From a virus: 64,000 bases of DNA. Of this stretch, positions 37,420 to 60,396 are shown one piece after another (position 1 is the stretch's first letter; each line of letters begins with the position of its first letter). The position numbers and the translations under genes are program-made. Under the pieces are notes generated by a model, which was not told the origin of the DNA, searched no databases, and worked only from the letters and a program-made list of their open reading frames with translations. The DNA lies in IMG/VR virus record IMGVR_UViG_3300042511_000631, positions 32,519-96,518 of that record, one strand, 5' to 3'.

Positions 37420-37878
37420 ATGGCCGTGTTAATGTTTTTAGATGGTGTAATGCGCAATCAACAAGGTTCGCCAATTCCTAATGGTGTGTTGTTATATCAC
37501 ATCTTAAAAGAAAAAAATAAAATATTATTACTTGTTGAAGACAAAGACAAAGCAGACACGTGGCTGCGCCAACACAAAATAAATAAGCTTGACGATCTAA
37601 TTGATTTTAATATCCCTATGCCAGGTGATGATCCAGAGTTCCGTCAAGTTGAGTACGTGCGCTCGCAAGGCCCAGTTGATTATGTAATTACCTCCGACCC
37701 AGCTTTAATTAAAAAACTGTTAGGGATCGGTGTAACTGTATTAGGGTTTATGAACCCTATTTATATTAGGGAAGAGTTTCGGCCAGATAGCAAAGTCGGT
37801 ATTAAAAAGTGGGCGGATATTGTTGATGAGCTAGCCCGCCAACAAGACGCCTTCCTATCGGATCCCCGCGTAGAGTGA
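37420..37878 (+). CDS. HAD-like protein, possibly without catalytic nucleophile
   Basis: The 152-residue product begins AVLMFLDGVMRNQQGSPIP, recalling the HAD motif hhDxDGV with the first Asp replaced by Phe. ILLLVEDKDKADTWL and DYVITSDPALIKKLLGIG fit later strands of a Rossmann fold. If HAD-like it may be inactive or a binding protein. The call is tentative; the next gene overlaps by 4 bases. Confidence 0.4.
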   Translation: MAVLMFLDGVMRNQQGSPIPNGVLLYHILKEKNKILLLVEDKDKADTWLRQHKINKLDDLIDFNIPMPGDDPEFRQVEYVRSQGPVDYVITSDPALIKKLLGIGVTVLGFMNPIYIREEFRPDSKVGIKKWADIVDELARQQDAFLSDPRVE

Positions 37879-39344
37879 AGATCATTTACCTAGGGGCGGA
37901 AGTCCCAAGTAATCGTGTACTACTAGAATCCACTACAGCTAACCATGTAGGCGTTAGCTTCTGGCGGTTAGTTAAGCGAGGGTTACCAAAGAAGAGTGAC
38001 TACATGCTTGACAACTACTTTGCCAAAGACTGCTATATTTATGTTCACCCCGGCATTCCTAAAAACTTAGTCCTATCGGCCTCCGAGGTTGAAGACTTTG
38101 CGGTTATGTACGAGCACTTTGTAGCTAACAACATTGACCGCCTTACTGTAGTTACCGAGATCAACGGCCCACATATCAATCCCGTATTTGTAGAGTCTCA
38201 GCGCCGTACGGTGTGGCATGAGATCCCGCCAGGCAAGTTTCAACCTGTATGGGGACAGCAAACTGGGCTGCGGGGGTTACAAACCCTTGTGGATAAGTAT
38301 TTAGACGTTGCTATCCCCGGAGATGCTATAGAGTCTGATTCTCAGCTTGCTATGGCTACTAGAGCTCACGCTATCCAGCATGGCACTAGGTTCCACGCCC
38401 TAGGCTGCGCCAAGCCTGACAACCTGCGGCAAGTCAAGGTTGAAACAGCTAGCACCTTGTCATGGATGTCACCTATGCTTCATGGCGAAACTATTATTTG
38501 GGATGGCAGCCGACTGGTACGCTACCCAAAGAAGATGAAAGATCAAGCGCGGTCACGGTACAAGCATGTATATGAAAAAGCCGGACTCGACGCAGATAAG
38601 ATTCTAGAAGATGATGCCCAAGAGGTATGTCGACTAGCAGTATGGTCATATGAACAGCTTGAAGTGAGGATAAATAAGATGATCAATAACCCAGATGACG
38701 AGCTCTTATATGATAATAGCGAGTGGAGTGAAGGGGAGCAAAAGGGGGAAACTACCCCTGCCCATGCTGATAACAGGGGTATCCAGATGCGGAAACTTAT
38801 ACCCCGCGAACCCGAAGAAATGGGCAATTTACCAGTCTTCGGATACGAGGATAAGACCGAGGTTGACAACGATGGAGTCATTAAAGATGTCACCGTTGTT
38901 CACTCCCAAAAGGCTAGTTTACGAGCTTGCGATACCTGCTTTGTAGCTGCTAACTGCCCTGCTTTTAAACCTCAAAGTGTCTGTGCTTTCAAGCTTCCAA
39001 TCGAGGTAAAGACCAAAGATCAGCTCAAGAGTTTGATCAACGCAGTCATTGAAATGCAGGGTCAACGCATTGCTTTTATGCGTTTTGCTGAGGAAATGAA
39101 CGGTGGATACGCAGATCCAAACCTTTCACAAGAGATGGATCGCTTGTTTGAAATGCTAAAAGATACCAAGCAACTAGACGATTCACGTGAGTTTATTCGC
39201 ATGACCGTAGAGCGACAAGGCTCCTCTGGTGTGCTAAGTTCTATCTTCGGGGACAAGGCAAATGTCCTTAAAGAACTTCCCGACGGAGGGCTAAATGAAG
39301 CTCAAACCACCGAGATTATCAGGCAATCTTTAGAGGATAAGTAG
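37875..39344 (+). CDS. TIM-barrel protein resembling tRNA-guanine transglycosylase-like enzymes, with four-Cys domain
   Basis: The 489-residue product (GTG start) opens with KIIYLGAEVPSNRVLLES. The N-terminal ~230 residues look like a TIM barrel: RLTVVTEINGP, FQPVWGQQTGLRGLQTLV, then FHALGCAKPDNLRQ and ETASTLSWMSP. That late pattern recalls TGT/DpdA-like barrels. The C-terminal half has CDTCFVAANCPAFKP plus SVCAF, a possible metal cluster, and ends helical. The enzyme activity is inferred only; no 7-deazaguanine synthesis genes are in the window. Confidence 0.45.
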   Translation: MKIIYLGAEVPSNRVLLESTTANHVGVSFWRLVKRGLPKKSDYMLDNYFAKDCYIYVHPGIPKNLVLSASEVEDFAVMYEHFVANNIDRLTVVTEINGPHINPVFVESQRRTVWHEIPPGKFQPVWGQQTGLRGLQTLVDKYLDVAIPGDAIESDSQLAMATRAHAIQHGTRFHALGCAKPDNLRQVKVETASTLSWMSPMLHGETIIWDGSRLVRYPKKMKDQARSRYKHVYEKAGLDADKILEDDAQEVCRLAVWSYEQLEVRINKMINNPDDELLYDNSEWSEGEQKGETTPAHADNRGIQMRKLIPREPEEMGNLPVFGYEDKTEVDNDGVIKDVTVVHSQKASLRACDTCFVAANCPAFKPQSVCAFKLPIEVKTKDQLKSLINAVIEMQGQRIAFMRFAEEMNGGYADPNLSQEMDRLFEMLKDTKQLDDSREFIRMTVERQGSSGVLSSIFGDKANVLKELPDGGLNEAQTTEIIRQSLEDK

Positions 39345-39456: not shown

Positions 39457-41481
39457 ATGGCATTATCGTTTCGTTTAGCCGATGAATTTGTTGGCAGTTA
39501 CAAAGAAAAGAAAGTCCCTTGGGGCTATCAAGATGCCGCTGGAAACTCGGTTGGAGAGATTACCTTCCTTCGCACCTACTCCCGTTTGAAGGAAGACGGA
39601 ACTAAAGAAACTTGGGTTGACGTGTGTGAGCGTGTTATCAACGGCATGTACTCAATCCAGAAAGACCACGCTAAAAGCCAGCGTTTACCTTGGAATGACT
39701 CCAAGGCTCAGTCCTCAGCTAAAGAGGCCTTCGACCGCCTGTTTAACTTGAAGTGGACTCCGCCGGGTCGCGGGTTATGGGTTATGGGTACTCCGCTTGT
39801 TAATGAGCAGAAGAACTCAGCTGCCCTACAGAACTGTTCATTTGTGTCAACTGACGCCATGACCAAGCTCAACCCAGCCAAGCCATTTGCTTTCTTAATG
39901 GAAGCGTCTATGCTAGGGGTGGGCGTCGGGTTTGACGACAAGGGCGCGGACAAAGACTTCATGATCTATGAGCCTAAGCTGCCGCCGGTCACTATTGTTA
40001 TTCCAGATACCCGCGAAGGCTGGGTAGAATCTGTATCAACACTGATCAATTCGTATCTAAAGCCAGAACAGCCAGTCTATGAGTTTGACTACTCAGAGAT
40101 TCGGCCAGCTGGCGCACTTATTAAAACTTTCGGCGGTACTGCTGCCGGACATGAACCATTGGAGAAACTACATGAGTACATTCGAGGAATCTTTGCTGGA
40201 CGAGCTGGTGAAAAGCTTATTCGGAGGGATATTGCAGACATTGGAAACCTTATTGGGGTCTGTGTCGTTAGTGGAAACGTACGTCGCTCAGCAGAACTGC
40301 TAATGGGGCGTCTGGATGACCCAGACTTCCTAAATCTAAAGAACGCTGCGGTATATCCAGAGCGTAACTCCTACGACCCAAAGAATCCGGGTTGGGCATG
40401 GATGAGTAATAACAGCGTTGAAGTTTGTGTAGGAGATGATATGACTCATATCGTTGACAGCATAGCTTTGAACGGTGAGCCCGGTGTAATTTGGATGGAC
40501 GTGACTCGCAAGTATGGTCGCCTCATTGATCCACCTAACAATAAAGACTGGCGAGCTGCCGGTTACAACCCATGCGCGGAACAATCCCTTGAAAGCTTTG
40601 AGTGTTGTACTTTGGTAGAAACTTATCTCAATCGCCATGAAAACTTAGAAGACTTTAAGCGCACTCTCAAGTTTGCTTATCTCTACGCAAAGACTGTAAC
40701 TCTTCTCCCAACTCACTGGGAAGAAACTAACGCAATCATGCAGCGCAATCGTCGTATCGGAACTTCTATGTCCGGTATTGCTAACTTTGCTGATCGCGTA
40801 GGACTACCAACTCTTCGTGAGTGGATGAACGCGGGTTATGAAAAGATCCAAGCTTACGATAAGTCATACTCAGAGTGGCTAGGTATTCGTGAATCAATTA
40901 AGACTACAACTGTAAAGCCTTCCGGCACTGTGTCTATCCTTGCCGGTGAATCTCCTGGTGTTCATTGGACTCCAGGTGGAGAATACTTCATGCGAGCTAT
41001 TCGTTTTGCTAATGAAGATCCTATGCTTCCATTGTTTAAAGCTTCGGGTTATGTTGTTGAGCCGGCCAGTGAATCTCCTGACACTACAAGCGTGGTGTTC
41101 TTCCCAATTAGATCTCTTGCTCTCCGTTCAGAGAAAGACGTATCTATCTGGGAGAAAGCTGACTTAGCAGCTCTAGCTCAGCACTATTGGTCTGACAACT
41201 CTGTATCTGTAACCGTATCATTCGACGCGGAAAAGGAAAAGGAAACTGTAGGCCGTGTACTACATATGGTAGACGGAAAGCTAAAGACAATCTCTTTCCT
41301 ACCTATGGGCAATCATGTCTATCCTCAAATGCCATACACGCAAACAACTAAAGAAATCTACGATGAATACGCTATGACTCTCTTGCCTATTGACTTTACC
41401 GACGTGTACGCCGGTATGGCAGCTGACGCAATTGGTGAAAAGTATTGTTCAACTGACTTCTGTGAAGTACCTAAGCCATAA
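39457..41481 (+). CDS. Adenosylcobalamin-dependent (class II) ribonucleoside-triphosphate reductase
   Basis: The 674-residue product matches the monomeric class II reductase: VCERVINGMYSIQKDH, WTPPGRGLWVMGTPLV, AALQNCSFVST, SMLGVGVGFD, NPCAEQSLESFECCTLVETY (active-site Cys and Glu), RNRRIGTSMSGIA, TTVKPSGTVSILAG. A C-terminal Cys pair in YCSTDFCEV follows. It makes dNTPs from NTPs using B12, independent of oxygen. It pairs functionally with the dNMP kinase. A strong terminator follows. Confidence 0.92.
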   Translation: MALSFRLADEFVGSYKEKKVPWGYQDAAGNSVGEITFLRTYSRLKEDGTKETWVDVCERVINGMYSIQKDHAKSQRLPWNDSKAQSSAKEAFDRLFNLKWTPPGRGLWVMGTPLVNEQKNSAALQNCSFVSTDAMTKLNPAKPFAFLMEASMLGVGVGFDDKGADKDFMIYEPKLPPVTIVIPDTREGWVESVSTLINSYLKPEQPVYEFDYSEIRPAGALIKTFGGTAAGHEPLEKLHEYIRGIFAGRAGEKLIRRDIADIGNLIGVCVVSGNVRRSAELLMGRLDDPDFLNLKNAAVYPERNSYDPKNPGWAWMSNNSVEVCVGDDMTHIVDSIALNGEPGVIWMDVTRKYGRLIDPPNNKDWRAAGYNPCAEQSLESFECCTLVETYLNRHENLEDFKRTLKFAYLYAKTVTLLPTHWEETNAIMQRNRRIGTSMSGIANFADRVGLPTLREWMNAGYEKIQAYDKSYSEWLGIRESIKTTTVKPSGTVSILAGESPGVHWTPGGEYFMRAIRFANEDPMLPLFKASGYVVEPASESPDTTSVVFFPIRSLALRSEKDVSIWEKADLAALAQHYWSDNSVSVTVSFDAEKEKETVGRVLHMVDGKLKTISFLPMGNHVYPQMPYTQTTKEIYDEYAMTLLPIDFTDVYAGMAADAIGEKYCSTDFCEVPKP

Positions 41482-45754: not shown

Positions 45755-46251
45755 ATAGTTAACCTTTCAATAGAATAAATTAATCGCGGTGGCTATCACC
45801 ACTTTCCCTATCATAGAGATAGACATATAGAGAGAGTCAAGCCAATATGGGCATATATAGCTATTGTTACCTAATCGTTATAATTGAGGGCTAGAGGGCT
45901 ACTTGGAAGCCTTGCCTCTCTCTCACTCTCTCTCTCTAGCTCATACACACTCTTATCAGCTAAGACTGTCCGGCAACCGGCAGATAATCTGGCCGCGCTG
46001 CTGGGTTGGCCGGTGAGCGGCCGGCAGTAGCCCAATATCGCTAAATAGCTATATCTCTTTGTCGACAATTGGCTAGCACGCCGGCCATAGCTTTGTCAAG
46101 CATCCGGCCGTGTTAGCTGCGTCACACGTTGATCTCTCTCTTTACCCTATCCCGAAGGGATAAGGGGAGGGTGGGTCAACACAAACAAGTTGCCGAGCTG
46201 CGCCGGTCGCCCGGGCAGCTCAGCAAGCTGGCAGTGTTAGCTAATTCATCG
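45755..46251 (-). other. Noncoding gap 1 of the minus-strand block
   Basis: About 500 bases without a credible gene. On the minus strand TTGACT (45841-45836) is followed after 19 bases by TATGAT, a likely promoter for 45754. A CT-rich tract, a GC-rich CCGGC-studded patch (45970-46035), TTGTCGACAA, a long imperfect inverted repeat near 46070-46120 (GCTAGCACG / CGTGTTAGC), and repeat copy 1 follow. Confidence 0.6.
46144..46186. repeat. 43-bp intergenic repeat, copy 1
   Basis: It begins ACCCTATCCCGAAGGGATAA, continues GGGGAGGGTGGGTCAACAC and ends AAAC. The TATCCC-GAA-GGGATA hairpin is perfect. It differs from copies 2-4 by one base (GTCAAC for GCCAAC). Followed to the right by a GAGCTGC/GCAGCTC hairpin. 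Confidence 0.9.
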
Positions 46252-46350
46252 TTAATCATCCTCTCTACAGATGTCGCACAGTCTTTCCGCGCAACATATT
46301 GACTCGACCGAGCAGCGTTCGCACCACTCTTTATCTAGATCACAGCTCAT
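46252..46350 (-). CDS. Cys-rich micro-protein
   Basis: The 32-residue product is MSCDLDKEWCERCSVESICC followed by AERLCDIC and an acidic end. Seven cysteines suggest zinc or Fe-S binding. The ATG overlaps the upstream stop by 4 bases. Small, so only moderately certain. Confidence 0.5.
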   Translation of the reverse strand: MSCDLDKEWCERCSVESICCAERLCDICREDD

Positions 46351-46673
46351 TTACACTCCAAGCTGTATAAAAGGTTCTCCGCGTACTCATACATCGGCGT
46401 GCCCTCAGCTACCTCTGTCCGGGCCCCGTCAAACCAGTCATGAAAGACATACTCCGCGGAAACGATCTCTCCGAACTTGTGCTTTATCTCTAAATAGTCA
46501 CTAGGGCCACCGTAGCTAAAACACACACGGGTGAACTCATATTGATCAATTGCGAGCGCGGGGTCGTCAAAATACTCATCTGGATCAGGGTGATCCATAA
46601 GCAGTCGTAGCTGCGCATTCCTCTGCGCTAGCTCAGCTTGAATGCGATCTTTACAAGGCTCATTACTACTCAT
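46347..46673 (-). CDS. Unknown acidic protein
   Basis: The start is ATG 46673 (MSSNEPCKDRIQAELAQRNA), not the far upstream ATG at 46808. The 108-residue product has DHPDPDEYFDDPALAIDQYE and FGEIVSAEYVFHDWFDGART. It overlaps its upstream neighbour by 8 bases. Function unknown. Confidence 0.6.
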   Translation of the reverse strand: MSSNEPCKDRIQAELAQRNAQLRLLMDHPDPDEYFDDPALAIDQYEFTRVCFSYGGPSDYLEIKHKFGEIVSAEYVFHDWFDGARTEVAEGTPMYEYAENLLYSLECK

Positions 46674-46818
46674 TTTCACACCCGCACGCGCAGCTAACCG
46701 CTTCGGTAGCTGCTTCGAGCCCTTTCTCTTTAATATATTCGGTGGCGTAGAAAGAGGCCTCCCCAGCGGAGAGGCCAACCTCCATTCCCCAATCTTTAAG
46801 ACGATCAAACGTGCTCAT
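46666..46818 (-). CDS. Unknown 50-residue protein
   Basis: The product is MSTFDRLKDWGMEVGLSAGE, then ASFYATEYIKEKGLEAATEA and a terminal SCACGCENE. Start and stop overlap neighbours, and the start fits the ATGA pattern. Confidence 0.55.
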   Translation of the reverse strand: MSTFDRLKDWGMEVGLSAGEASFYATEYIKEKGLEAATEAVSCACGCENE

Positions 46819-46994
46819 AGCTTCCCCTCAATATTCGTCGAATAGCACTCTTTACAAGTGCCTTCCTCAACCTCATGGAACTCTTTGTAAAAGACATCCT
46901 CAAGCTCACCTTTCTCATCGTACTCAGCTTCGTTATAGCTATTCTCACAATAAGTAAAGCGGCGGGTATTACCACAATCTAGACACTTAGGCAT
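46815..46994 (-). CDS. Small zinc-ribbon protein
   Basis: The 59-residue product begins MPKCLDCGNTRRFTYCENS, has an acidic middle and ends GTCKECYSTNIEGKL. Two CxxC pairs fit a zinc ribbon. It overlaps the upstream gene by 8 bases. Confidence 0.62.
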   Translation of the reverse strand: MPKCLDCGNTRRFTYCENSYNEAEYDEKGELEDVFYKEFHEVEEGTCKECYSTNIEGKL

Positions 46995-47268
46995 TTGTAA
47001 CCTCCAGTTTAGTAGTCCAGTCCGACATATCAGGGTAGTTCAGGCCGAATATAAAGCCACCGCCATTGCCTTCCTCATCTTGCGATATCTCTATCTTGAT
47101 TAGCTTGCCATTAGCAAGGCGCACCGAAAACTGCGGGAAGGAATCCTCACTACACTCAAGGCCAATTTTGCCCTTAAAGCTAATTATCTTTGCGCCCTCT
47201 AATTGGCTATAGTAACGCTTGTAAAACTCAGCAGCTTTAGCTGCGTGGTGATCGTTTAACGCACTCAT
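46987..47268 (-). CDS. Unknown protein, first gene of operon 2
   Basis: Start ATG 47268 (SALNDHHAAKAAEFYKRYY) or 47277; the upstream GATAGAGAG favours either. The ~93-residue product continues GAKIISFKGKIGLECSED and LANGKLIKIEISQDEEGN, beta-rich. Upstream is the CGACACGCC motif and a TTGATA box. Confidence 0.58.
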   Translation of the reverse strand: MSALNDHHAAKAAEFYKRYYSQLEGAKIISFKGKIGLECSEDSFPQFSVRLANGKLIKIEISQDEEGNGGGFIFGLNYPDMSDWTTKLEVTNA

Positions 47269-47338
47269 CTCTCTCATCTCTCTATCAGTTGTGGTATCTC
47301 CACGGTCATAAATTACTCTCTTTCAGCTACTTATCAAC

Positions 47339-47403
47339 CGACACGCCGCACTTTCGCAGCTATTTTTTTATAACAATATTGTTATCGACTCTCTCGGCGT
47401 GTC
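47339..47403 (-). promoter_or_regulatory. Nested inverted-repeat operator and promoter, operon 2
   Basis: CGACACGCC (47339-47347) and GGCGTGTC (47396-47403) flank the perfect 16-bp palindrome ATAACAATATTGTTAT (47370-47385). On the minus strand GGCGTGTCG is followed at once by TTGATA, the likely -35 for the gene at 47268. The arrangement recurs in operon 3. Confidence 0.6.
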
Positions 47404-47434
47404 TACTTGACATTCCGGCCGACTCTCTCTCCAC

Positions 47435-47477
47435 ACCCTATCCCGAAGGGATAAGGGGAGGGTGGGCCAACACAAAC
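47435..47477. repeat. 43-bp intergenic repeat, copy 2
   Basis: It begins ACCCTATCCCGAAGGGATAA and ends GGGCCAACACAAAC, identical to copies 3 and 4. It lies between the operator region of operon 2 and the terminator of the next operon. Confidence 0.92.
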
Positions 47478-47510
47478 ATTTGGCTTTTGGGTTTAGGCAT
47501 TTCCCTAAAA

Positions 47511-47556
47511 TAAAAAGAGAAATGCCCCAGCTGCCGTCTAACAGCCAGGGCATTCT
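47511..47556 (-). terminator. Intrinsic terminator of the C2H2 operon
   Basis: On the minus strand GAATGCCCTGGCTG pairs with CAGCTGGGGCATTTC around a short loop, followed by TCTTTTTATTTT. It lies past the stop of the gene at 47581. Confidence 0.82.
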
Positions 47557-47580
47557 TTTCTCTGATAGGAGGAAACCTAT

Positions 47581-47844
47581 TTAATCACAACAGCCACAAC
47601 ATTCTACGCAGACCGGTTGATTATCTTTAATATGAGTCCGGCAAGCATACTCACTCATATTCATATCTGGATTCCGGCAGTCCTCACAGATGATCTCCGC
47701 TAATTGCTGCCATGTCATATCTCTTAAGTGCGGGGGTTCATCTTCATCTACATGAGTCCGATAATGGACTATCAGATCACTAGAGGTAGAGAAGTAACCA
47801 AAGCAATACTCACAGACTCTAGTTACCACAGCAACCCTCCCCAT
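47581..47844 (-). CDS. Classical C2H2 zinc-finger protein
   Basis: Start ATG 47844 (MGRVAVVTRV). The 87-residue product has CEYCFGYFSTSSDLIVHYRT followed by H. That is C-x2-C-x3-F-x5-L-x2-H-x3-H, the full TFIIIA-type signature rather than the shorter bacterial Ros spacing. The C-terminal part adds CEDCRNPDMN, ACRTHI and CVECCGCCD. Likely DNA, RNA or protein binding; a candidate regulator of the block. Confidence 0.72.
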   Translation of the reverse strand: MGRVAVVTRVCEYCFGYFSTSSDLIVHYRTHVDEDEPPHLRDMTWQQLAEIICEDCRNPDMNMSEYACRTHIKDNQPVCVECCGCCD

Positions 47845-47965
47845 TATGGATCTCTTTAACATCTAACCACCGTAGCACTTCACCGTCATAGACATCGGCG
47901 GTAAAGTTCATAATTGCGTTTAACCATTTTTCATCGATCTCAAGGGTGACTCTGTAGTTAGGCAC
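47819..47965 (-). CDS. Unknown 48-residue protein (GTG start)
   Basis: The product is VPNYRVTLEIDEKWLNAIMN, then FTADVYDGEVLRWLDVKEIH and NGEGCCGN. GTGAGG lies 7 nt upstream. It overlaps the next start by 26 bases and the previous stop by 8. Confidence 0.52.
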   Translation of the reverse strand: MPNYRVTLEIDEKWLNAIMNFTADVYDGEVLRWLDVKEIHNGEGCCGN

Positions 47966-48377
47966 TTGGCACCTCACTATGAGTCGACACGTATGAGTTC
48001 GCGCCCGGAACTACAACACTATTTAACTTGATAATCGCCTTATGAGGGCACGGGCAATCGGGGGTGGGCACATACTCCTCTTTCCAATAAGTAGTGATCT
48101 CCATTAGAGAGTCGCACTCGGTACAAAGATATTGGTGCTTAACCCATGCGCCAAAGTGTGTCTTATTGACCTTAGATACCAAGCCAAGTTCAGCGATCTG
48201 CGGAGAGAGTTCGTCAATCTCTTCATCTAACTCTACACGAATAGATATATAGTCATCATGGTCTTGATTCTGTCTAAGATAGTTCAGATCTACAGCAACG
48301 CCAATAGCCACATCTAGTAGTACCATGGCATCAGGGTCACCCTGTAAATACTTTTCTGCGATCTCGCGGTTGTTCAT
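47958..48377 (-). CDS. Zinc-ribbon protein, first gene of operon 3
   Basis: The 139-residue product has a helical N-terminal half (REIAEKYLQGDPDAMVLLDV). A zinc ribbon follows, YLCTECDSLMEITTYW with PTPDCPCPHKAIIKL, and a Ser/Thr tail. The leader carries TGATAGGTGAGAA before ATG. Regulated by the operator at 48452. Confidence 0.62.
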   Translation of the reverse strand: MNNREIAEKYLQGDPDAMVLLDVAIGVAVDLNYLRQNQDHDDYISIRVELDEEIDELSPQIAELGLVSKVNKTHFGAWVKHQYLCTECDSLMEITTYWKEEYVPTPDCPCPHKAIIKLNSVVVPGANSYVSTHSEVPSA

Positions 48378-48451
48378 ATTCTCACCTATCAGGATAAGTC
48401 GGCATTGTTACCGACAAAGCACAAGGTAGTGCCTCTCTCAGTTAATTTCAA

Positions 48452-48505
48452 CGACACGCCGTAAAATTACTATAACGATATTGTTATAAACTTAACGGCG
48501 TGTCG
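48452..48505 (-). promoter_or_regulatory. Nested inverted-repeat operator and promoter, operon 3
   Basis: Perfect 11-bp arms CGACACGCCGT (48452-48462) and ACGGCGTGTCG (48495-48505) flank the near-palindrome TATAACGATATTGTTATA (48471-48488). The two share a centre within one base. On the minus strand GGCGTGTCG runs straight into TTGAAA, with TACCTT 17 bases on. Confidence 0.65.
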
Positions 48506-48523
48506 CCTTGACTCTCTCTCAAT

Positions 48524-48566
48524 ACCCTATCCCGAAGGGATAAGGGGAGGGTGGGCCAACACAAAC
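48524..48566. repeat. 43-bp intergenic repeat, copy 3
   Basis: Identical to copies 2 and 4. TTGACTCTCTCTCAAT precedes it. After it comes a less conserved part with GGGCAAAATAG and TTTTGGCATGCCCTAAAA. Confidence 0.92.
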
Positions 48567-48611
48567 TAATAAGCATTGAGGCTTTGGGCAAAATAGTATT
48601 TTGGCATGCCC

Positions 48612-48652
48612 TAAAAAAAAGATCGCCCCCACCGGCAACCGGCAGGGGCGAG
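48612..48652 (-). terminator. Intrinsic terminator of operon 48665-49852
   Basis: On the minus strand TCGCCCCTGCCGG pairs with CCGGTGGGGGCGA, followed by TC and eight Ts. Strong rho-independent terminator. Confidence 0.88.
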
Positions 48653-48664
48653 CTTCTATTTAAT

Positions 48665-48823
48665 TTAATCGAAATAACCTTCAGCCCACAGCCCATTTAG
48701 AAAGACTGTCGCCATAGTTAAATTACCATGTAACCAAGGGTCATCAGTATCATTAACAGTAGTTAAAGCAGACTCAATAGCAGTAACCATGTCATCTAGG
48801 TCAGCTTTGGTATATCCCAGCAT
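48665..48823 (-). CDS. Unknown 52-residue protein
   Basis: The product is MLGYTKADLDDMVTAIESAL, then TTVNDTDDPWLHGNLTMATV and FLNGLWAEGYFD. GGTGAG precedes the ATG. It follows the stop of the next upstream gene by 3 bases. Confidence 0.6.
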   Translation of the reverse strand: MLGYTKADLDDMVTAIESALTTVNDTDDPWLHGNLTMATVFLNGLWAEGYFD

Positions 48824-48826
48824 GGC

Positions 48827-49297
48827 TCACCAACTCGACTGGTACTCGAACGACCAGTATTGTCCATATTTTGCGGTGTGTAGGCACTTGTCAACGATAG
48901 CAATCGTATTGCTAAGGCTTTGGTAATACCAGTCATCTCGCTCAGCATTACCAAAGAAAAACCCTTCGGTAGGTTCTAGCACTCCGCCACCTTTACCGCC
49001 AGCAGGTACCAGCAACTCTAACTGGCAAGCCTCTTTAAGTTTGACTAGATCGTCAACGCTTACATAATACGGCTTACAATTATCCTCACCGCCTTGGACA
49101 TTTTCAACGAACCAGTTATGAATTGCGTTAGCCTTGCGCCAATAACCAACATTGAAAGAGATCTCCATTGACGGGGATTGCTCTGATATTTCGACTTGCG
49201 GATATAAAGCTTTTAAGCGATCAAACTCGCTTGTATCGTCTTGGTGCGACCAGCCGCTTATATATTTTTTTGCGTATAAATACATATCTAAACCCAT
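48827..49297 (-). CDS. Conserved phage protein of the MGLDMYL type
   Basis: The 156-residue product starts MGLDMYLYAKKYISGW and has NVGYWRKANAIHNWFVENVQ and FFFGNAERDDWYYQSLSNTI. This combination recurs in many unrelated phages and prophages, with no function known to me. The conserved Tyr/Trp/Arg/Lys/His residues suggest an enzyme or nucleic-acid binder. A 23-bp hairpin sits 27 bases upstream. Confidence 0.72.
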   Translation of the reverse strand: MGLDMYLYAKKYISGWSHQDDTSEFDRLKALYPQVEISEQSPSMEISFNVGYWRKANAIHNWFVENVQGGEDNCKPYYVSVDDLVKLKEACQLELLVPAGGKGGGVLEPTEGFFFGNAERDDWYYQSLSNTIAIVDKCLHTAKYGQYWSFEYQSSW

Positions 49298-49323
49298 TTA
49301 CTTACTCCTATCTAGTAGTTTGG

Positions 49324-49346
49324 TGAGCAGTTTAATCTCATGCTCA
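49324..49346 (-). repeat. 23-bp leader hairpin, copy 1 (degenerate)
   Basis: TGAGC and GCTCA arms enclose a 13-nt loop (AGTTTAATCTCAT). It lies 27 bases before the start of the gene at 49297. Two near-identical copies lie before the genes at 51495 and 51693. Confidence 0.7.
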
Positions 49347-49360
49347 GGAGAGATAGGGGA

Positions 49361-49852
49361 TTACGCCAGCGTTTCGGCAGTAATTTTTTGGTTAGCGATC
49401 TCGTTGATGGCTTCAACGATCTTTGAGTGTAGCCCGTCACGCATTTGCTGAACTGATTCGGGTGACCAGCCAGCGCGGATTACGCGTACCACTAGCAAGG
49501 CTAGTGAGTAACTAGGATCTGCCACTAGACACTTTTCTAGTGACGCCATAGCGTCAGCGGTTAGCCCTACTTCATACTGATAAAGGGCTAATACAGCGTT
49601 AAACGGGGTGCGGTGATTCTCCGCGACATTTTCTGCTAGGTAAGCAAGATATTCAAACGCGGTCATAAAGTCTTTTGACTCTACTGTGAAACCGATTAGG
49701 TAATCGCGCAACTGAACTTCATTTGCTACGGCATAACCGATAATGTCTAGTGACAATGGGCTAATGAACTTCTTATCTAAAAAACGCTGATAATTGTTGT
49801 CAATTATCAGTTTTGCCTCTGAAACAGTAGGCAAGGCTTCAATGCTTAACAT
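49361..49852 (-). CDS. DUF4192-like protein
   Basis: The 163-residue product has the actinobacterial DUF4192 pattern: FMTAFEYLAYLAENVAENHR, TPFNAVLALYQYEVGLTADA and ALEKCL-type SLEKCLVADPSYSLALLVVR. The WSPESVQQMRDGL end follows. The family has no assigned activity. The protein is shorter than chromosomal members, keeping mainly the C-terminal half. It supports an actinobacterial host. Confidence 0.75.
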   Translation of the reverse strand: MLSIEALPTVSEAKLIIDNNYQRFLDKKFISPLSLDIIGYAVANEVQLRDYLIGFTVESKDFMTAFEYLAYLAENVAENHRTPFNAVLALYQYEVGLTADAMASLEKCLVADPSYSLALLVVRVIRAGWSPESVQQMRDGLHSKIVEAINEIANQKITAETLA

Positions 49853-49930
49853 TGAAATCTCCTATCAAGAGTTACTAGACCGATCTGATCTAGTAAGAGC
49901 AATTTAATCTCTCGCCCTGTCAATGTAAAG

Positions 49931-49939
49931 CGACACGCC
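49931..49939 (-). promoter_or_regulatory. CGACACGCC operator-like site, DUF4192 operon
   Basis: CGACACGCC lies upstream of TTGACA (minus strand, 49923-49918 region), the likely -35 for the gene at 49852. There is no second arm here; an AT-rich tract follows instead. Confidence 0.5.
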
Positions 49940-49985
49940 GACCATTTAGCAATTATTTTTTTATTTTTTACGCGCCTCTCTCAAT

Positions 49986-50028
49986 ACCCTATCCCGAAGG
50001 GATAAGGGGAGGGTGGGCCAACACAAAC
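49986..50028. repeat. 43-bp intergenic repeat, copy 4
   Basis: Identical to copies 2 and 3. It is followed by TTAGGCATTGGGAAAAG and TTTTGGCACCCTATATAAAA, the semi-conserved part seen beside each copy. Confidence 0.92.
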
Positions 50029-50080
50029 ATATTAGGCATTGGGAAAAGAAGTTTTGGCACCCTATATAAAACGCGGGCAC

Positions 50081-50109
50081 AGAAAAGCCCCGGGGGGAAG
50101 GCCGGGGCT
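50081..50109 (-). terminator. Intrinsic terminator of the ArdC operon
   Basis: On the minus strand AGCCCCGG pairs with CCGGGGCT around a short loop, followed by TTTTCT. Located 27 bases past the last stop. Confidence 0.78.
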
Positions 50110-50135
50110 GATCTGTTTATCTGATAGGGATAAAG

Positions 50136-50228
50136 CTAGTTCTCGCAATCGCTACAGGTTGGTTGGCCGTCAACCAGATGATAGCCGGTAATTTCATCTA
50201 CCGGTGAGCCACAACTCCAGCATTTCAT
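50136..50228 (-). CDS. Miniature zinc-ribbon protein
   Basis: The 30-residue product is MKCWSCGSPVDEITGYHLVD followed by GQPTCSDCEN. Two CxxC pairs in 30 residues make a minimal ribbon. The ATG overlaps the ArdC stop by 4 bases, so it is co-translated with it. Confidence 0.6.
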   Translation of the reverse strand: MKCWSCGSPVDEITGYHLVDGQPTCSDCEN

Positions 50229-51103
50229 GCGCTCACCTCTTCCTTGACCTCGGCGCCTGTAATACACGCAACCGCTTTTTGCGCCTTCGCGCTCGCCTTA
50301 AAGATTAGGCTGGTGTCATTTTTTAGCGCGGTGAGCCAATTCTTTACATAAGCGCCACTATTAGGCAGATCGAATTCGATTCCCGCGGTTGATAACAGCA
50401 TACATGAGCCTAATTCTGCTACCAATTCCTCTTTGGCGTATGACTCGCAACCAAACGCGCTTGGCTTGTCTGCGGAATCCTTCCAGCGATTCACGCGTGA
50501 TTCGTGACCTGTGGAGTGAATCATCTCATGCGCGAAAGTGTAAGCATGCTCGCCTGCGCTGTCGAATTGCTTAAGTGCTGGCAAGGTGATCGAATCTGCG
50601 CTAGGTGAATAAAATGCGCCCGCTTGCTCGCGATAGTAAAGTGTAGGGCGGTTTGCGTATCCTTCCCAGATCGCGTTAATACCTTCTAAAGGTGTTACAG
50701 GCTCGCGGGTGTCTAGGTACTTACTAGGCAATTCGACACCTTCGGTTTGATCTAGGTTGAATACGCTGTCTAACTTATACATGAAGAAAGATTTAGCTGG
50801 ATCGCCCGCTGGCACTTTCTTATCTATGCGCGACATGAACACCACCTTGGTGGCTTTCTCGCCTTTCTTAACGCTTCCGCCCAATTTCTTTGCTTGGTTG
50901 AAAGTAATCCATAGCGGGCGGGAATACTCTAAACCCGCGATAGATAATAGAAGGTTATTTATGCCTTGGTAAGGTTTGCCAGTTTGTAATGATGTCGGCA
51001 TATAGCCATCGGTTGCCCAACCCTTGCGCCATGGCGCATTGCCTTGTTCTAGTTCTGCCATGATCAACCCTGTAACCATGTCCTTGATTTCTGCTTGATT
51101 CAT
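50225..51103 (-). CDS. ArdC-like anti-restriction protein (ssDNA-binding plus zincin)
   Basis: The 292-residue product has the N-terminal ArdC domain: LEQGNAPWRKGW, KPYQGINNLLLSIAGLEYSR, LWITFNQAKKLGGSVKKGEK. A zinc peptidase-like domain follows, FAHEMIHSTGHESR (HExxH at 192-196). The distal YAKEELVAELGSCML supplies the third ligand Glu. ArdC proteins protect incoming DNA from restriction. GATAGGGGAT is the leader/RBS element. Host-defence evasion is the probable role. Confidence 0.88.
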   Translation of the reverse strand: MNQAEIKDMVTGLIMAELEQGNAPWRKGWATDGYMPTSLQTGKPYQGINNLLLSIAGLEYSRPLWITFNQAKKLGGSVKKGEKATKVVFMSRIDKKVPAGDPAKSFFMYKLDSVFNLDQTEGVELPSKYLDTREPVTPLEGINAIWEGYANRPTLYYREQAGAFYSPSADSITLPALKQFDSAGEHAYTFAHEMIHSTGHESRVNRWKDSADKPSAFGCESYAKEELVAELGSCMLLSTAGIEFDLPNSGAYVKNWLTALKNDTSLIFKASAKAQKAVACITGAEVKEEVSA

Positions 51104-51214
51104 TTCTATCCCCTATCAAAGGTCACCCGATTAGGTGATGAGATGAAGGTATTCTCTATCTCTATGAATTACAAGCCACGCGCCCATTTATTAGGTAACG
51201 ATTAGATAACGATT

Positions 51215-51258
51215 TAATCCACAGCTTTATACACAGGCTGTGGATAACCTGTGGATAA
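51215..51258. promoter_or_regulatory. Cluster of four DnaA boxes
   Basis: TAATCCACA (51215-51223) and TTATACACA (51227-51235) lie on the plus strand; TGTGGATAA at 51239-51247 and 51250-51258 are TTATCCACA on the minus strand. Three match the DnaA consensus TTATNCACA and one has a single mismatch. Spacing of 11-12 bp puts them on one helix face. AT-rich ATAACGATTTA lies beside them. Candidate origin or DnaA-controlled promoter. Confidence 0.7.
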
Positions 51259-51266
51259 CTCTCTCC

Positions 51267-51309
51267 ACCCTATCCCGAAGGGATAAGGGGTGGGAGGGCC
51301 AACACAAAC
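51267..51309. repeat. 43-bp intergenic repeat, copy 5
   Basis: It starts ACCCTATCCCGAAGGGATAA and ends GGGCCAACACAAAC, with GGGTGGGAGGG in the centre instead of GGGAGGGTGGG. It directly follows the DnaA boxes. Confidence 0.9.
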
Positions 51310-51341
51310 ATTAGGCATCGGGAAATATTATTTGGCGCCCT

Positions 51342-51374
51342 AAAAAAAAGAACCCCCGCTGGGTGCGGGGGCTC
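51342..51374 (-). terminator. Intrinsic terminator of the rightmost minus operon
   Basis: On the minus strand GAGCCCCCGC pairs with GCGGGGGTTC around ACCCA, followed by eight Ts. Strong. Confidence 0.9.
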
Positions 51375-51390
51375 GATCGATAGGGTTTAT

Positions 51391-51495
51391 CTAAACAGCT
51401 TCACAATCATGTCCGTAATACCACTCACTAGCCTCATTTTCGTTGGCCAGATTAAATATCTTCCAACAGTGCGCGCATCTAATAACAGCTTTCAT
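51391..51495 (-). CDS. Miniature zinc-binding protein
   Basis: The 34-residue product is MKAVIRCAHCWKIFNLANEN, then EASEWYYGHDCEAV. CxxC plus a later H and C could bind zinc. AAAGGT precedes the ATG, and a 23-bp hairpin sits 27 bases upstream. Confidence 0.52.
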   Translation of the reverse strand: MKAVIRCAHCWKIFNLANENEASEWYYGHDCEAV

Positions 51496-51522
51496 TTTTT
51501 TACCTTTCTAAAGTTGATGTGG

Positions 51523-51545
51523 TGAGCCTTTTAAACCCATGCTCA
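51523..51545 (-). repeat. 23-bp leader hairpin, copy 2
   Basis: TGAGCCTTTTAAACCCATGC followed by TCA; arms TGAGC/GCTCA. It lies 28 bases before the start at 51495. Identical to copy 3. Confidence 0.8.
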
Positions 51546-51555
51546 GGGGCTAGTG

Positions 51556-51693
51556 CTATAACTGCGCTAACAAGCCGTTGTATTCATCCCATGTAATTTG
51601 CTTGGTGTAAAACTGAATTCCTAGTGCTATTTCTTTTTGTTTGCGATCTTCCGGGCCGGAAACAAAAGTTTCGTACCAAGTAGCGTAATCCAT
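51556..51693 (-). CDS. Unknown 45-residue protein
   Basis: The product is MDYATWYETFVSGPEDRKQK, then EIALGIQFYTKQITWDEYNG and LLAQL. AGAAAGGA is the ribosome-binding site. A helical hairpin is likely; function unknown. Confidence 0.55.
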   Translation of the reverse strand: MDYATWYETFVSGPEDRKQKEIALGIQFYTKQITWDEYNGLLAQL

Positions 51694-51718
51694 TTTATAA
51701 TCCTTTCTAGTAAGAGGG

Positions 51719-51741
51719 TGAGCCTTTTAAACCCATGCTCA
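51719..51741 (-). repeat. 23-bp leader hairpin, copy 3
   Basis: Identical to copy 2 (TGAGC/GCTCA arms), 26 bases before the start at 51693. The copies keep the same distance to the start codon, implying an RNA-level role. Confidence 0.8.
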
Positions 51742-51753
51742 GGGGTGGGGATC

Positions 51754-52116
51754 TTAGTAGTCTAGAGTTTCGTAATTCTCTAGGTAAGCGATATCCGATT
51801 CGGCAGCGGGGGTGCTGTAAATGCGGATAGATGAAGGAACCATGTCGTAAAGGTTTTCATCGGCAAGTTCGTAAGCCTTTTCAGATGAGCGGGCTTTTAC
51901 AGTAATTTCAGCGGTGTAAAGGAAAGAAACCTTTACAGGGAACTCAGTTTCTAGCCCCTCAAGTCCTAGGCTTTCTAGGAACTCATTTGCGGTGTCCTCG
52001 TCAATGTCATTGTCATTAACAAAGTCAATGAAGGTGGTGCGAACCTGCTCCTTGTAATCAACCAAGGCGTTACGAGTTGCGTTGAGTAACGCAATCGTTT
52101 CTGGCGCGATGTCCAT
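51754..52116 (-). CDS. Unknown protein, first gene of rightmost minus operon
   Basis: Start ATG 52116 with GGGGAT upstream, rather than 52131. The 120-residue product has an N-terminal helix (APETIALLNATRNALVDYKE) and an acidic middle. FPVKVSFLYTAEITVKARSS and SEKAYELADENLYD follow, a pattern seen in small phage proteins. Function unknown. Confidence 0.62.
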   Translation of the reverse strand: MDIAPETIALLNATRNALVDYKEQVRTTFIDFVNDNDIDEDTANEFLESLGLEGLETEFPVKVSFLYTAEITVKARSSEKAYELADENLYDMVPSSIRIYSTPAAESDIAYLENYETLDY

Positions 52117-52163
52117 TTTATCCCCTATCAAGAGATTAAGTACCAGCGGTTGCTGATAGGTGT

Positions 52164-52204
52164 ATTTTGACAGGTAGCAAGTAGTGAGTCAATAGCGACA
52201 CGCC
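52164..52204 (-). promoter_or_regulatory. Promoter with adjacent CGACACGCC operator
   Basis: On the minus strand TTGACT (52192-52187), a 17-bp spacer and CAAAAT (52169-52164) form a good promoter. CGACACGCC (52196-52204) ends 4 bases upstream of the -35. ATCGTTATAA repeats lie beyond. Same plan as operons 2-4. Confidence 0.68.
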
Positions 52205-57930: not shown

Positions 57931-60396
57931 ATAAAACGACTGCGCATGTTCGCAGTATTATCTGTACTAACATACGCCGCTTTTTTCCCTTTACTATTCC
58001 CAACACCTGCTAACGCCGAAGGTAGTATTGGCGCGCCTACAAACTTAACAATTGTTGACGGCGGGACTTCTCTTATTCTTTCTTGGCAAGCACCAGACTC
58101 TGGCACAGCTACAGTTCAACCAGAAAGATACGCCATTATGTTTAGCGTTGATGGAGGTGGTTGGGGAATAGCAACTGGAAATGTTGGAGATGCTAACGCT
58201 CTTAATACAACAATATCTATTGACAAGTCATTACTAGATAGCCTTAAACCTGCAGGCACGGTATGGTCATTTCATATTAGATCTGATAACGATACTTTGC
58301 GCATGTATTCCGCAAATTCAAATGTTGTAACTGGGGCTACTGCTGCTCCAGCCCCTGAACCAACTCCTACCCCTACTCCTACTCCGACTCCCACTCCAAC
58401 TCCGACTCCAGAGCCTTCACCATCTCCTTCAGAAACAGTAACGCCCCAACCGAGCCCAACGCCAGAACCAACAGCGACACCAGAACCTTCTTCATCTCCT
58501 ACTCCTTCTCCCGAGGCGACCAGTAATTCTCCTTCGCCTTCCCCGTCCACCACACAGCAGCCCAGCCCAGAGCCATCAGTAACACCCAGCCCAACACCAT
58601 CTCCATCAATTACTCCTTCCGATACTTCAACAGTTCAAGGTACAACAAATGAAGGCGGTTTACTAGAGCTAATTGCTCCTATTGGTAAAATATTTACATC
58701 TGTTATGTTTGCTAGTTATGGTACCCCAAACGGGTATTCGATTGGGCAATGTCACGCACCTAGCAGTATTGAAAAAGTGGCGGAAGTATTTTTAGGTAGA
58801 GCTATCGCTTCAATAATGGCGATCAATGACATATTTGGCGATCCTTGTAGCGGAGTTGGTAAAGCTTTAGCGGTAATACTTCAATACGGAAATGACCCTA
58901 ATCCCGCCCCATCGCCTTCGACTTCTCCAAGTCCAGAGCCATCTCCAACGTTGACTCCCGTAGATACCTCAACTGCAACTGTTTCTCCAACGCCATCACC
59001 TGAACCCTCATCGGAGCCGACGCCAACACCCACCCCAGAGCCAAGCCCAACACAAACATCACCAGTAGTAATACCGATTCCATCGCCTACTCCTCTTCCT
59101 GTCGAGCCAACGCCCACACCAACAGTCCCACCAGCAGTGGGACCAACACCACAACCGCAACCAGAACCAACTCCATCACCTACCCCTTCGCCTGAGCCCG
59201 TGCCTGTTGTAGTTCCAACGCCTTCGCCAGAGCCCGTTGTGCCGCCTGTTCCAGCGCCTCAGCCGTCTCCGGAGCCATCCCCGGAGCCAGTTCCTGTTCC
59301 TCAGCCATTACCTACTCCTTCTCCTGAACCGGAGCCTGCCCCAGAGCCAGAGCCTGCGCCAGAGCTAGAGCCAATTCCTGAACCTGAACTTGCTCCAGGA
59401 CCTTTACCAGAGCCTGAACTTGAGCCGCCGCTAATCCCAGAACCCGAGCCTGTTCCTGGGCCAGAACCTGAACCTTCTCCTGGACCTGCTCCAGAGCCGG
59501 AACCAACTCCCGAAGAGCCACCAATTGCGATCCCAGATCCTGAGGGTTCAATTGGTGAGCCACCTACTGAGCCACCCACAGAAGAGCCATTACCACCCAT
59601 AGAGCCGCAACCACCCGTGGAAGAGCCTTCAGAGCCACCCGTAGAGCCCGAGGAGCCTCCTGTGGTACCTGAGCCACCTGTGGAACCAGAACCAGCACCA
59701 GAGATACCAGAGCCAAAGCCACAAAATCCGATAGAAGAATCACCTAAACCTCCTGTAGTAGAACCTGCTCCAGAGCCTATCACACAGGCTGAGGAAACTA
59801 AGGTTGCCGTAACTGAGGCTTTGTCTGATGGAAAGATCACCGCAGCCGATAGCGTTGCTATTTTGGAGTCTTTAAACTCTGATGGAGAGGTCACCGCGGA
59901 AGAAGTATCTACCCTTTCTGAAGCTCTATCTGCTGATGGAAATTTAACTACTGCTGAAAAAGAATTAGTCGCGGATGCCCTTATTGAATCAGTAGTAGAA
60001 GGAGAAACTCTTACAACAGAGCAGATCCAAGACGCGGGAATTGAGTATAAAGATCTTCCAGCGGAGACACCTGTCGAGGTTAGACAGGATGAAGAAGGAA
60101 ACGAAGTTATAATTACAGCAGACGTAGCTGCGGCTCTAGTTTTACTAGAAAACCCATCAGAATTAATTGGCGCAATATTTAGCGATCCAGGTGAGGCACT
60201 ACAAGCACTTGCAAGTATTGGTGCTGATATGTCTACAGAAGAACGAGAAGAGTCTACTAAAGCAGTTGTTGCAACAGTTATTGCAGCAGGTGCGGCAATT
60301 AATGCCGTAGGTGCCGCTACAGCGGGTGGCTCCACTGGAGGAAGTACCGGAGGCGGAGGCGCCTCTGGACAATCAGGATATAGGAGAAAGCCTTGA
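57931..60396 (+). CDS. Exported proline-rich protein with fibronectin-like and SUEL-lectin-like domains
   Basis: The obvious ATG is 57946, but GGGGGAG lies best for ATA at 57931, which would add IKRLR and complete a signal peptide (cleavage near NANA-type PANAEG). Domains: Fn3-like at ~25-125, a Pro/Thr/Ser linker, then a galactose-binding-lectin-like domain ~248-312 (FASYGTPNGYSIGQCHAP, FLGRAIASI, FGDPCSGVGKALAV). A long PEP-type repeat region to ~615 follows, then EF-hand-like SDGKITAAD / SDGEVTAEE / ADGNLTTAE helices and a Gly-rich end. Probably a cell-surface or virion protein. Confidence 0.72.
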   Translation: MKRLRMFAVLSVLTYAAFFPLLFPTPANAEGSIGAPTNLTIVDGGTSLILSWQAPDSGTATVQPERYAIMFSVDGGGWGIATGNVGDANALNTTISIDKSLLDSLKPAGTVWSFHIRSDNDTLRMYSANSNVVTGATAAPAPEPTPTPTPTPTPTPTPTPEPSPSPSETVTPQPSPTPEPTATPEPSSSPTPSPEATSNSPSPSPSTTQQPSPEPSVTPSPTPSPSITPSDTSTVQGTTNEGGLLELIAPIGKIFTSVMFASYGTPNGYSIGQCHAPSSIEKVAEVFLGRAIASIMAINDIFGDPCSGVGKALAVILQYGNDPNPAPSPSTSPSPEPSPTLTPVDTSTATVSPTPSPEPSSEPTPTPTPEPSPTQTSPVVIPIPSPTPLPVEPTPTPTVPPAVGPTPQPQPEPTPSPTPSPEPVPVVVPTPSPEPVVPPVPAPQPSPEPSPEPVPVPQPLPTPSPEPEPAPEPEPAPELEPIPEPELAPGPLPEPELEPPLIPEPEPVPGPEPEPSPGPAPEPEPTPEEPPIAIPDPEGSIGEPPTEPPTEEPLPPIEPQPPVEEPSEPPVEPEEPPVVPEPPVEPEPAPEIPEPKPQNPIEESPKPPVVEPAPEPITQAEETKVAVTEALSDGKITAADSVAILESLNSDGEVTAEEVSTLSEALSADGNLTTAEKELVADALIESVVEGETLTTEQIQDAGIEYKDLPAETPVEVRQDEEGNEVIITADVAAALVLLENPSELIGAIFSDPGEALQALASIGADMSTEEREESTKAVVATVIAAGAAINAVGAATAGGSTGGSTGGGGASGQSGYRRKP

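Follow-up and report, generated by a model that had tools for sequence, protein, structure and literature searches.

A promoter coupled to a terminator hairpin constitutes the promoter-early stem-loop (PeSL) cassette, and the core of integron attC sites follows the consensus RYYYAAC..GTTRRRY. PeSL cassettes are described from T4-like phages (Arbiol 2010; Comeau 2014; cited through PMC4503421), and attC sites have a length of 57-142 nt (PMC2727003). In actinophages, the start-associated sequences (SAS) and extended start-associated sequences (ESAS) of Cluster K mycobacteriophages are oriented, repeated and conserved intergenic sequences, and ESAS form 17-bp inverted repeats that are imperfect and whose spacers vary (PMC3203893). 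Stoperators of Cluster A mycobacteriophages are many asymmetric, transcription-oriented sites in short intergenic spaces (PMC9283540). Here we analyze a 64,000-nucleotide stretch of viral DNA (the window; bases 32519-96518 of the 96,518-base IMG/VR virus record IMGVR_UViG_3300042511_000631), in which five gaps between minus-strand genes carry a 43-bp hairpin element. It resembles these actinophage sequences in being oriented, repeated and intergenic. However, SAS lie at the start codon and ESAS follow one consensus per genome, while the elements here are found far upstream and have copy-specific arms; stoperators are 13-bp protein-binding sites without a palindrome, while the elements here are palindromic, and no monomeric repressor of the stoperator type was identified here, though no search aimed at it was made. 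The repeat is a member of an undescribed family of DNA elements that form hairpins and are placed singly in the gaps between independently transcribed early genes of freshwater actinobacterial viruses. Its 43 bp are one form of a far larger palindrome family that bounds shuffled early-gene cassettes, which lay beyond the view of an earlier note on this DNA.

The function that we consider best supported by sequence evidence, with a probability of about 45%, is that of a DNA-level joint for early-gene cassettes that would promote cassette exchange. On the minus strand, the 5' to 3' sequence of the element reads GTTTGTGTTGRCCC[A/T]CCC[T/A]CCCCTTATCCC-TTC-GGGATAGGGT, followed by GAGAGAG. All five copies are oriented alike, on the strand of the flanking genes (Table 1). 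Copies 2, 3 and 4 are exactly identical, copy 1 differs by a G to A change, and in copy 5 the two C-run spacers are exchanged; the earlier note had counted the copies and their deviations correctly. TATCCCGAAGGGATA occurs exactly 5 times in the entire record and no further copies are found. Conservation of the 43-bp block stops abruptly at either side. The longer element pattern gives 0 matches in shuffled windows and the element recurs in relatives, in agreement with the former view of the copies as functional sites and not chance. The within-genome identity of the copies is 0.90 in the window versus a median of 0.64-0.72 in most other genomes (end motif excluded). Because the five copies are alike while the orthologous joint between gene families g15 and g19 carries another element form in two related contigs (L006 and L076), one form has apparently spread to all five joints of the window genome, the element itself marking the boundary.

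A search of the whole record and of related contigs, which the earlier note had recommended, locates the family in about 50 IMG/VR virus contigs; pattern scans there yielded 11 stretches with the window form and 67 with the 5' part of the element. Relatives keep the repeats together with the flanking genes, contrary to the refuting condition set in the earlier note. Three forms are observed. Form A consists of CCCNCCCNCCC and then a mini-hairpin (the window form) or a short spacer with GGGA. Form B has CCCNCCCNCCC enclosed by a stem of 3-6 bp whose sequence varies, and a second hairpin follows. Form C comprises palindromes of 59-142 nt which start with GTTTGTGTTGG, end with CCAACACAAAC and are closed by CAACACAAAC, some of them being three-way junctions, as in L028. 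At the element start, adjoining the terminator of the preceding unit, lies the end motif GTTTGTG(Y)(Y)G. Its positions 1-7 (GTTTGTG) and G10 are invariant in 36/36 perfectly closed palindromes and in 137+6 single ends, and positions 8-9 vary only from T to C, the partner base changing along in the 36 closed palindromes. L006, a 97,993-base contig with an ArdC-like protein of 62% identity, is the nearest protein-level relative found. Four elements lie between homologous genes there, and in them GTTTGTGTTGGCCCACCC[N]CCCC and a different loop take the place of the 43 bp. Several seemingly element-free gaps actually hold a GTTTGTGC variant.

Some further features of the forms are observed. One element of L037, in the gap from g31 to g48, is reversed and has the variant end GTTTGTGTCGG. 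Between GGGA and GAGAG, forms A and B contain a tract nearly without C, in which short tandem repeats (GTTGTTG, GTAAGTAAG, TATATATA, ATACATACATA, GGTGGTGG) vary per copy before AGAGAGAG. The two purines of CCCC[R]TT..GGGA[R]T in form A match in nearly all copies (A with A, G with G), and base pairing gives no account of this agreement. Outside these viruses, the family has no covariance-model match in Rfam 15 at E<=1 and no meaningful match among 50,697 phage records, and the strict pattern has 0 matches in GTDB genomes. A host origin was thus rejected; the sole long-form match (L093, a contig of an Acetobacteraceae metagenome-assembled genome) is a palindrome with no relation to the family, and its surroundings are unrelated as well.

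Neighbour genes are on the element's own strand in 94/104 cases upstream and in 91/100 downstream. Of the elements, 15/117 overlap a called open reading frame (ORF), and these are taken to be chance ORFs. In the window, copies 2-5 are found just past intrinsic terminators and copy 1 has a GC hairpin only, as described before; L006 has a matching GC-rich hairpin at the syntenic place. The 'semi-conserved second part' reported between repeat and terminator is real as well, and relatives show ..AGGG..(T)GCC-AAAn..nTTT-CCC..TGCCTAAT ahead of GTTTGTGTTG. Operator-like motifs are present downstream of the elements and hardly upstream, including CRP-like TGTGA-N6-TCACA (40/117 downstream versus 1/117 upstream), the DnaA box TTATCCACA, CGGCGTGTCG, and GTTAT..GTTAT repeats. 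A DnaA-box-like site lies at most 80 bases downstream in 23/52 long-form elements. One operator often dominates in a phage: the CRP-like site in L049 (7/9), the DnaA box in L072 (6/7), CGGCGTGTCG in L015 (7/8) and the GTTAT repeats in L076 (4/4). These uniform operators upstream of ribosome-binding sites suggest a promoter block after the element. With a terminator before and operators after, the element is therefore placed past the end of the preceding transcription unit and ahead of the start of the following one. L049, L044, L020, L072, L015 and L076 each seem to place one host-type operator before most early units, and LexA-like and parS-like (TTTCACGTGAAA) sites are found in a few intergenic regions.

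The location between terminator and operator block would also suit a topological or insulating element, either a supercoil-absorbing cruciform or a protein-bound block against read-through and promoter interference, and shuffling would then be a by-product of lying between transcription units. One element per gap between tandem units is what insulation would need, and a structure at the DNA level agrees with it. However, it is not apparent why a mere insulator should require an invariant end of 10 bases, three structural forms or copy-specific arms, and a strong terminator already precedes most copies. We consider this explanation the main and serious rival, although it is on the whole rather unlikely.

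The stems keep their pairing while their sequence is free. Ten phages carry unrelated or strongly diverged palindromes ahead of the same gene family g3. In form B, the arms pair over at least 4 bp in 34/44 distinct cases versus a mean of 4.6 and a maximum of 12 for permuted arms (2,000 permutations). The second hairpin of the A and B elements exceeds shuffles in length (4.01 versus 2.94, standard deviation 0.09). C-GNA-G is an unusually stable DNA triloop, and the triloops of this second hairpin are TNC in 32/39, which is GNA on the opposite strand. In the 52 form C elements, 1,639 Watson-Crick pairs are found with two isolated internal mismatches. In DNA folding, two form C elements reach z = -9.2 and -12.9, and window copy 5 reaches about -3. 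An RNA under selection is expected to use the G-U route, while DNA palindromes are not. Folded as RNA, form C has 57 G-U pairs on the sense strand versus 93 on the other and thus no sense-strand excess. Across 26 homologous pairs, double Watson-Crick changes occur 59 times. Single changes lead to G-T 7 times and to A-C 20 times, with 48 of other kinds; the pairs share ancestry and are not independent, so that these counts describe a pattern and not probabilities. Since double compensations dominate and the G-U route is scarce, the stems point to a DNA hairpin or cruciform rather than an RNA. The DNA-level structure is well supported, as is the position as a transcription-unit joint.

An RNA element, folding in read-through transcripts that are then processed, terminated again or antiterminated, is improbable. 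Its orientation is fixed relative to transcription and the form B stems are compensated, which both would be expected of an RNA. But besides the lack of G-U enrichment and of an Rfam match, the element starts at the end of the terminator tail and stops before the operators, and is thus outside both mRNAs. The long hairpins end in AACACAAAC with the operator block next, and no T-run follows them. Among the roles offered by the earlier note, the processed RNA is not supported for these reasons, a partition site has left no mark on the element, and a replication site is unlikely with one origin per gene gap. A bound protein is plausible, since the invariant GTTTGTG(Y)(Y)G end resembles a recognition sequence. 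Three further candidates were rejected: an intrinsic terminator as the identity of the long hairpins, for want of the T-run; a G-quadruplex as the common denominator, because four G-runs are present in the window form and not in the short-spacer A form; and a simple promoter of the sigma-70 or T7-like kind, as the conserved GTTTGTGTTG..CCC and GGG blocks are set at variable distances.

Gene order changes at the joints. When the proteins of every locus are clustered, the same small families (ArdC and others) recur in differing order, separated by elements, in about 25 contigs. With a slash for each element, the order is g15/g19 g10/g42/g26 in the window, g15/g19 g17/g31 g54/g26 in L006, g10/g19/g60 g17/g26 g22/g31/g36/g9 g5 in L020, and g15/g19 g17/g10 in L076. 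Neighbours are conserved in 288/1,210 comparisons across element boundaries (24%) versus 416/1,020 across element-free ones (41%), a contrast reached in 0/1,000 label permutations in a test that ignores phylogeny. When the same downstream gene has different upstream neighbours, homology often begins at position 0 of GTTTGTGTTG. When the same upstream gene has different downstream neighbours, homology often stops near the far end of the element. Elements are similar at >0.7 identity in 25% of the pairs with a shared upstream gene and in 23% of those with a shared downstream gene, versus a background of 15%. Where a gene pair lacks the element, its gap is mostly -4 to 70 bases long and holds neither terminator nor promoter. 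Therefore the whole joint is gained or lost, and it is not an insertion. The arrays often end in a gene pair that on inspection looks like a MoxR-type AAA ATPase (g0) and a VWA protein (g12), as in L027, L036, L066, L078 and L049. The large array-end gene g0 was also tried as an integrase and rejected, as by eye it looks like the MoxR-type AAA ATPase adjoining the VWA protein, and not like a recombinase.

Repetitive extragenic palindromic (REP) sequences and miniature inverted-repeat transposable elements (MITE) are likewise short palindromic intergenic repeats. A non-autonomous mobile element of this kind, inserting beside terminators, would account for the conserved inverted ends and variable interior of the long form, and for one form that fills all five window gaps while another occupies the g15 to g19 joint of L006 and L076. 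But target-site duplications of at least 5 bases are found in 0/47 cases, and no transposase was found in the records searched. In addition, the element-free pairs are mostly short operonic gaps and the joint comes whole, and one element per unit boundary in a single orientation is too regular for transposition. This origin has little probability. A single-strand DNA promoter or replication/primer site, at which a stable GNA mini-hairpin on the template strand would attract a polymerase or primase, in the manner of N4-type early promoters or single-strand origins, is very unlikely: the TNC triloops and the DnaA-box-like sites after copy 5 and after 23/52 long elements would fit, but the spacing between conserved blocks is variable, the long form has no mini-hairpin, separate operator blocks follow the element, and single-subunit RNA polymerase PF00940 is found in 0/16 records, though the control genomes gave none either.

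The window phage is a myovirus by its tail sheath and baseplate wedge. It encodes a WhiB-like regulator, DnaB helicase, primase, family A DNA polymerase, RecA and a RuvC-like resolvase, and an actinobacterial host is assigned because of the WhiB-like regulator together with this replication gene set. Its nearest cultured relatives are Streptomyces BRock-type myophages, with 38-40% identity in sheath and polymerase. GTTTGTGTT is not found at all in the BRock-type myophage stretches examined.

For a joint of early-gene cassettes, we propose that the GTTTGTG(Y)(Y)G end would be recognised by a trans-acting factor, and that the remainder of the element, as self-complementary DNA, could be extruded in vivo into a hairpin or cruciform. 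Because a joint follows the terminator of a unit and precedes the putative promoter of its successor, the interval between joints would be a self-contained cassette with a promoter, one to three small genes and a terminator. Cassettes would be gained, lost and re-ordered at the joints during phage genome recombination, and the elements may serve as seams for swapping small gene cassettes among viruses. The exchange could proceed via a novel recombinase, via a structure-specific resolvase (a phage RuvC-like enzyme) with RecA, or via single-strand annealing; the RecA and RuvC-like resolvase of the phage are candidates to act on cruciforms. A doubtful possibility is a structure-encoded, site-specific cassette system of lytic actinophages, in which an enzyme would read GTTTGTG(Y)(Y)G at the base of the DNA hairpin and excise or join promoter-gene-terminator cassettes, as an independently evolved counterpart of the integron with no known integrase.

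Several observations weigh against exchange promoted by the joint. Gaps within operons are expected to be better conserved, so that the lower neighbour conservation across elements is no proof that the element causes exchange. The divergence of copies within most genomes (0.64-0.72) disfavours homology-based exchange between copies. The 43-bp window form is without the closing CAACACAAAC end. In records that are possibly incomplete, tyrosine recombinase PF00589 is found in 0/16 (control 14/14 genomes), Y1 transposase PF01797 in 0/12 (control 5/14 genomes), and serine recombinase in none of those searched (control 10/14 genomes). The BRock-type relatives also encode RuvC-like resolvases, while their examined stretches are without elements, which counts against the RuvC-like candidate.

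Table 1. Elements, neighbouring signals and genes in the window (coordinates are window positions).
Feature	Position	Strand	Remarks
GC-rich hairpin	46192..46224	-	GCTGAGCTGC/GCAGCTCGGC; immediately precedes copy 1 in the direction of transcription
Element copy 1	46144..46186	-	GTTTGTGTTGACCCACCCTCCCC-TTATCCC-TTC-GGGATAGGGT; sequence read directly and searched
Element copy 2	47435..47477	-	Sequence read directly and searched
Element copy 3	48524..48566	-	Sequence read directly and searched
Element copy 4	49986..50028	-	Sequence read directly and searched
Element copy 5	51267..51309	-	C-run spacers swapped: CCCTCCCACCCC; sequence read directly and searched
Intrinsic terminator before copy 2	47520..47555	-	
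Intrinsic terminator before copy 3	48623..48651	-	
Terminator hairpin before copy 4	50086..50109	-	
Intrinsic terminator before copy 5	51350..51374	-	
Second, weaker hairpin part, terminator to copy 2	47478..47513	-	AGGGAAATGCC..CCC..GCCAAAT
Second hairpin part, terminator to copy 3	48567..48616	-	Sequence read directly
Second hairpin part, terminator to copy 4	50029..50067	-	Sequence read directly
Second hairpin part, terminator to copy 5	51310..51346	-	Sequence read directly
Operator/promoter-like block after copy 2	47340..47403	-	CGACACGCCG..TAACAATATTGTTATA..CGGCGTGTCG
Operator/promoter-like block after copy 3	48452..48506	-	Same inverted CGACACGCCG/CGGCGTGTCG around TATAACNATATNGTTATA
DnaA-box-like 9-mer cluster after copy 5	51214..51258	-	TTATCCACA twice, TTATACACA/TGTGTATAA once, one near match
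ArdC-like antirestriction gene, family g15	50225..51103	-	Unit downstream of copy 5
Family g19 (DUF4192-like)	49361..49852	-	First gene of unit downstream of copy 4
Family g10 (MGLDMYL..)	48827..49297	-	Same unit as g19, downstream of copy 4
Family g42	47958..48377	-	First gene of unit downstream of copy 3
93-aa ORF, weak C2H2-type zinc-finger match	47581..47862	-	Second gene of copy-3 unit
Family g26	46987..47277	-	First gene of unit downstream of copy 2
Family g71	46347..46808	-	Later gene of copy-2 unit
Queuine tRNA-ribosyltransferase-like gene (g7)	37875-39344		Adjoining the minus-strand block
Ribonucleotide reductase-looking gene (g1)	39457-41481		Follows g7, adjoining the minus-strand block
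816-aa protein	57946-60396		Very long Pro/Glu/Thr/Ser-rich repeats

The g7 and g1 gene pair recurs in relatives, and in L006 a DnaA-box-like cluster similar to that after copy 5 instead follows the element preceding family g19.

Phage early regions contain many small accessory genes with fast turnover (antirestriction and others), and the exchange of whole transcription units without breaking regulation is mostly unexplained. A DNA joint between terminator and promoter, kept in structure and not in sequence, would be a physical answer if true. GTTTGTGYYG with a palindrome would also be a search handle by which accessory and anti-defence genes could be located in freshwater phages that are abundant and uncultured.

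Among the known systems, PeSL is the closest in role. As far as PMC4503421 describes, both are units of terminator and promoter between small early genes, at which gene order is shuffled. Such a unit is observed at the boundaries of small early genes here, with the promoter itself suggested by the operator blocks. Unlike PeSL in that account, the joint has a further palindromic DNA element, invariant at its end, between terminator and promoter, and the arm sequences differ between copies in most genomes. PeSL-type shuffling takes place between similar copies; here the order changes at joints, yet the copies in a genome mostly differ. Integron attC is the closest in form, with short conserved ends and a variable self-complementary interior in both. 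As with attC, there is one element per cassette, the structure is kept while the sequence is free, and the genes are mostly co-oriented. However, the end polarity is reversed relative to the attC consensus, with GTTTGTGYYGGG..CCCRRCACAAAC (GTT..AAC) here. Unlike in integrons, no integrase was found in the 16, possibly incomplete, records, the cassettes carry their own promoters and terminators, and the window form is single-ended. The joint is thus best read as comparable to PeSL in role and to attC in form, and as a member of neither.

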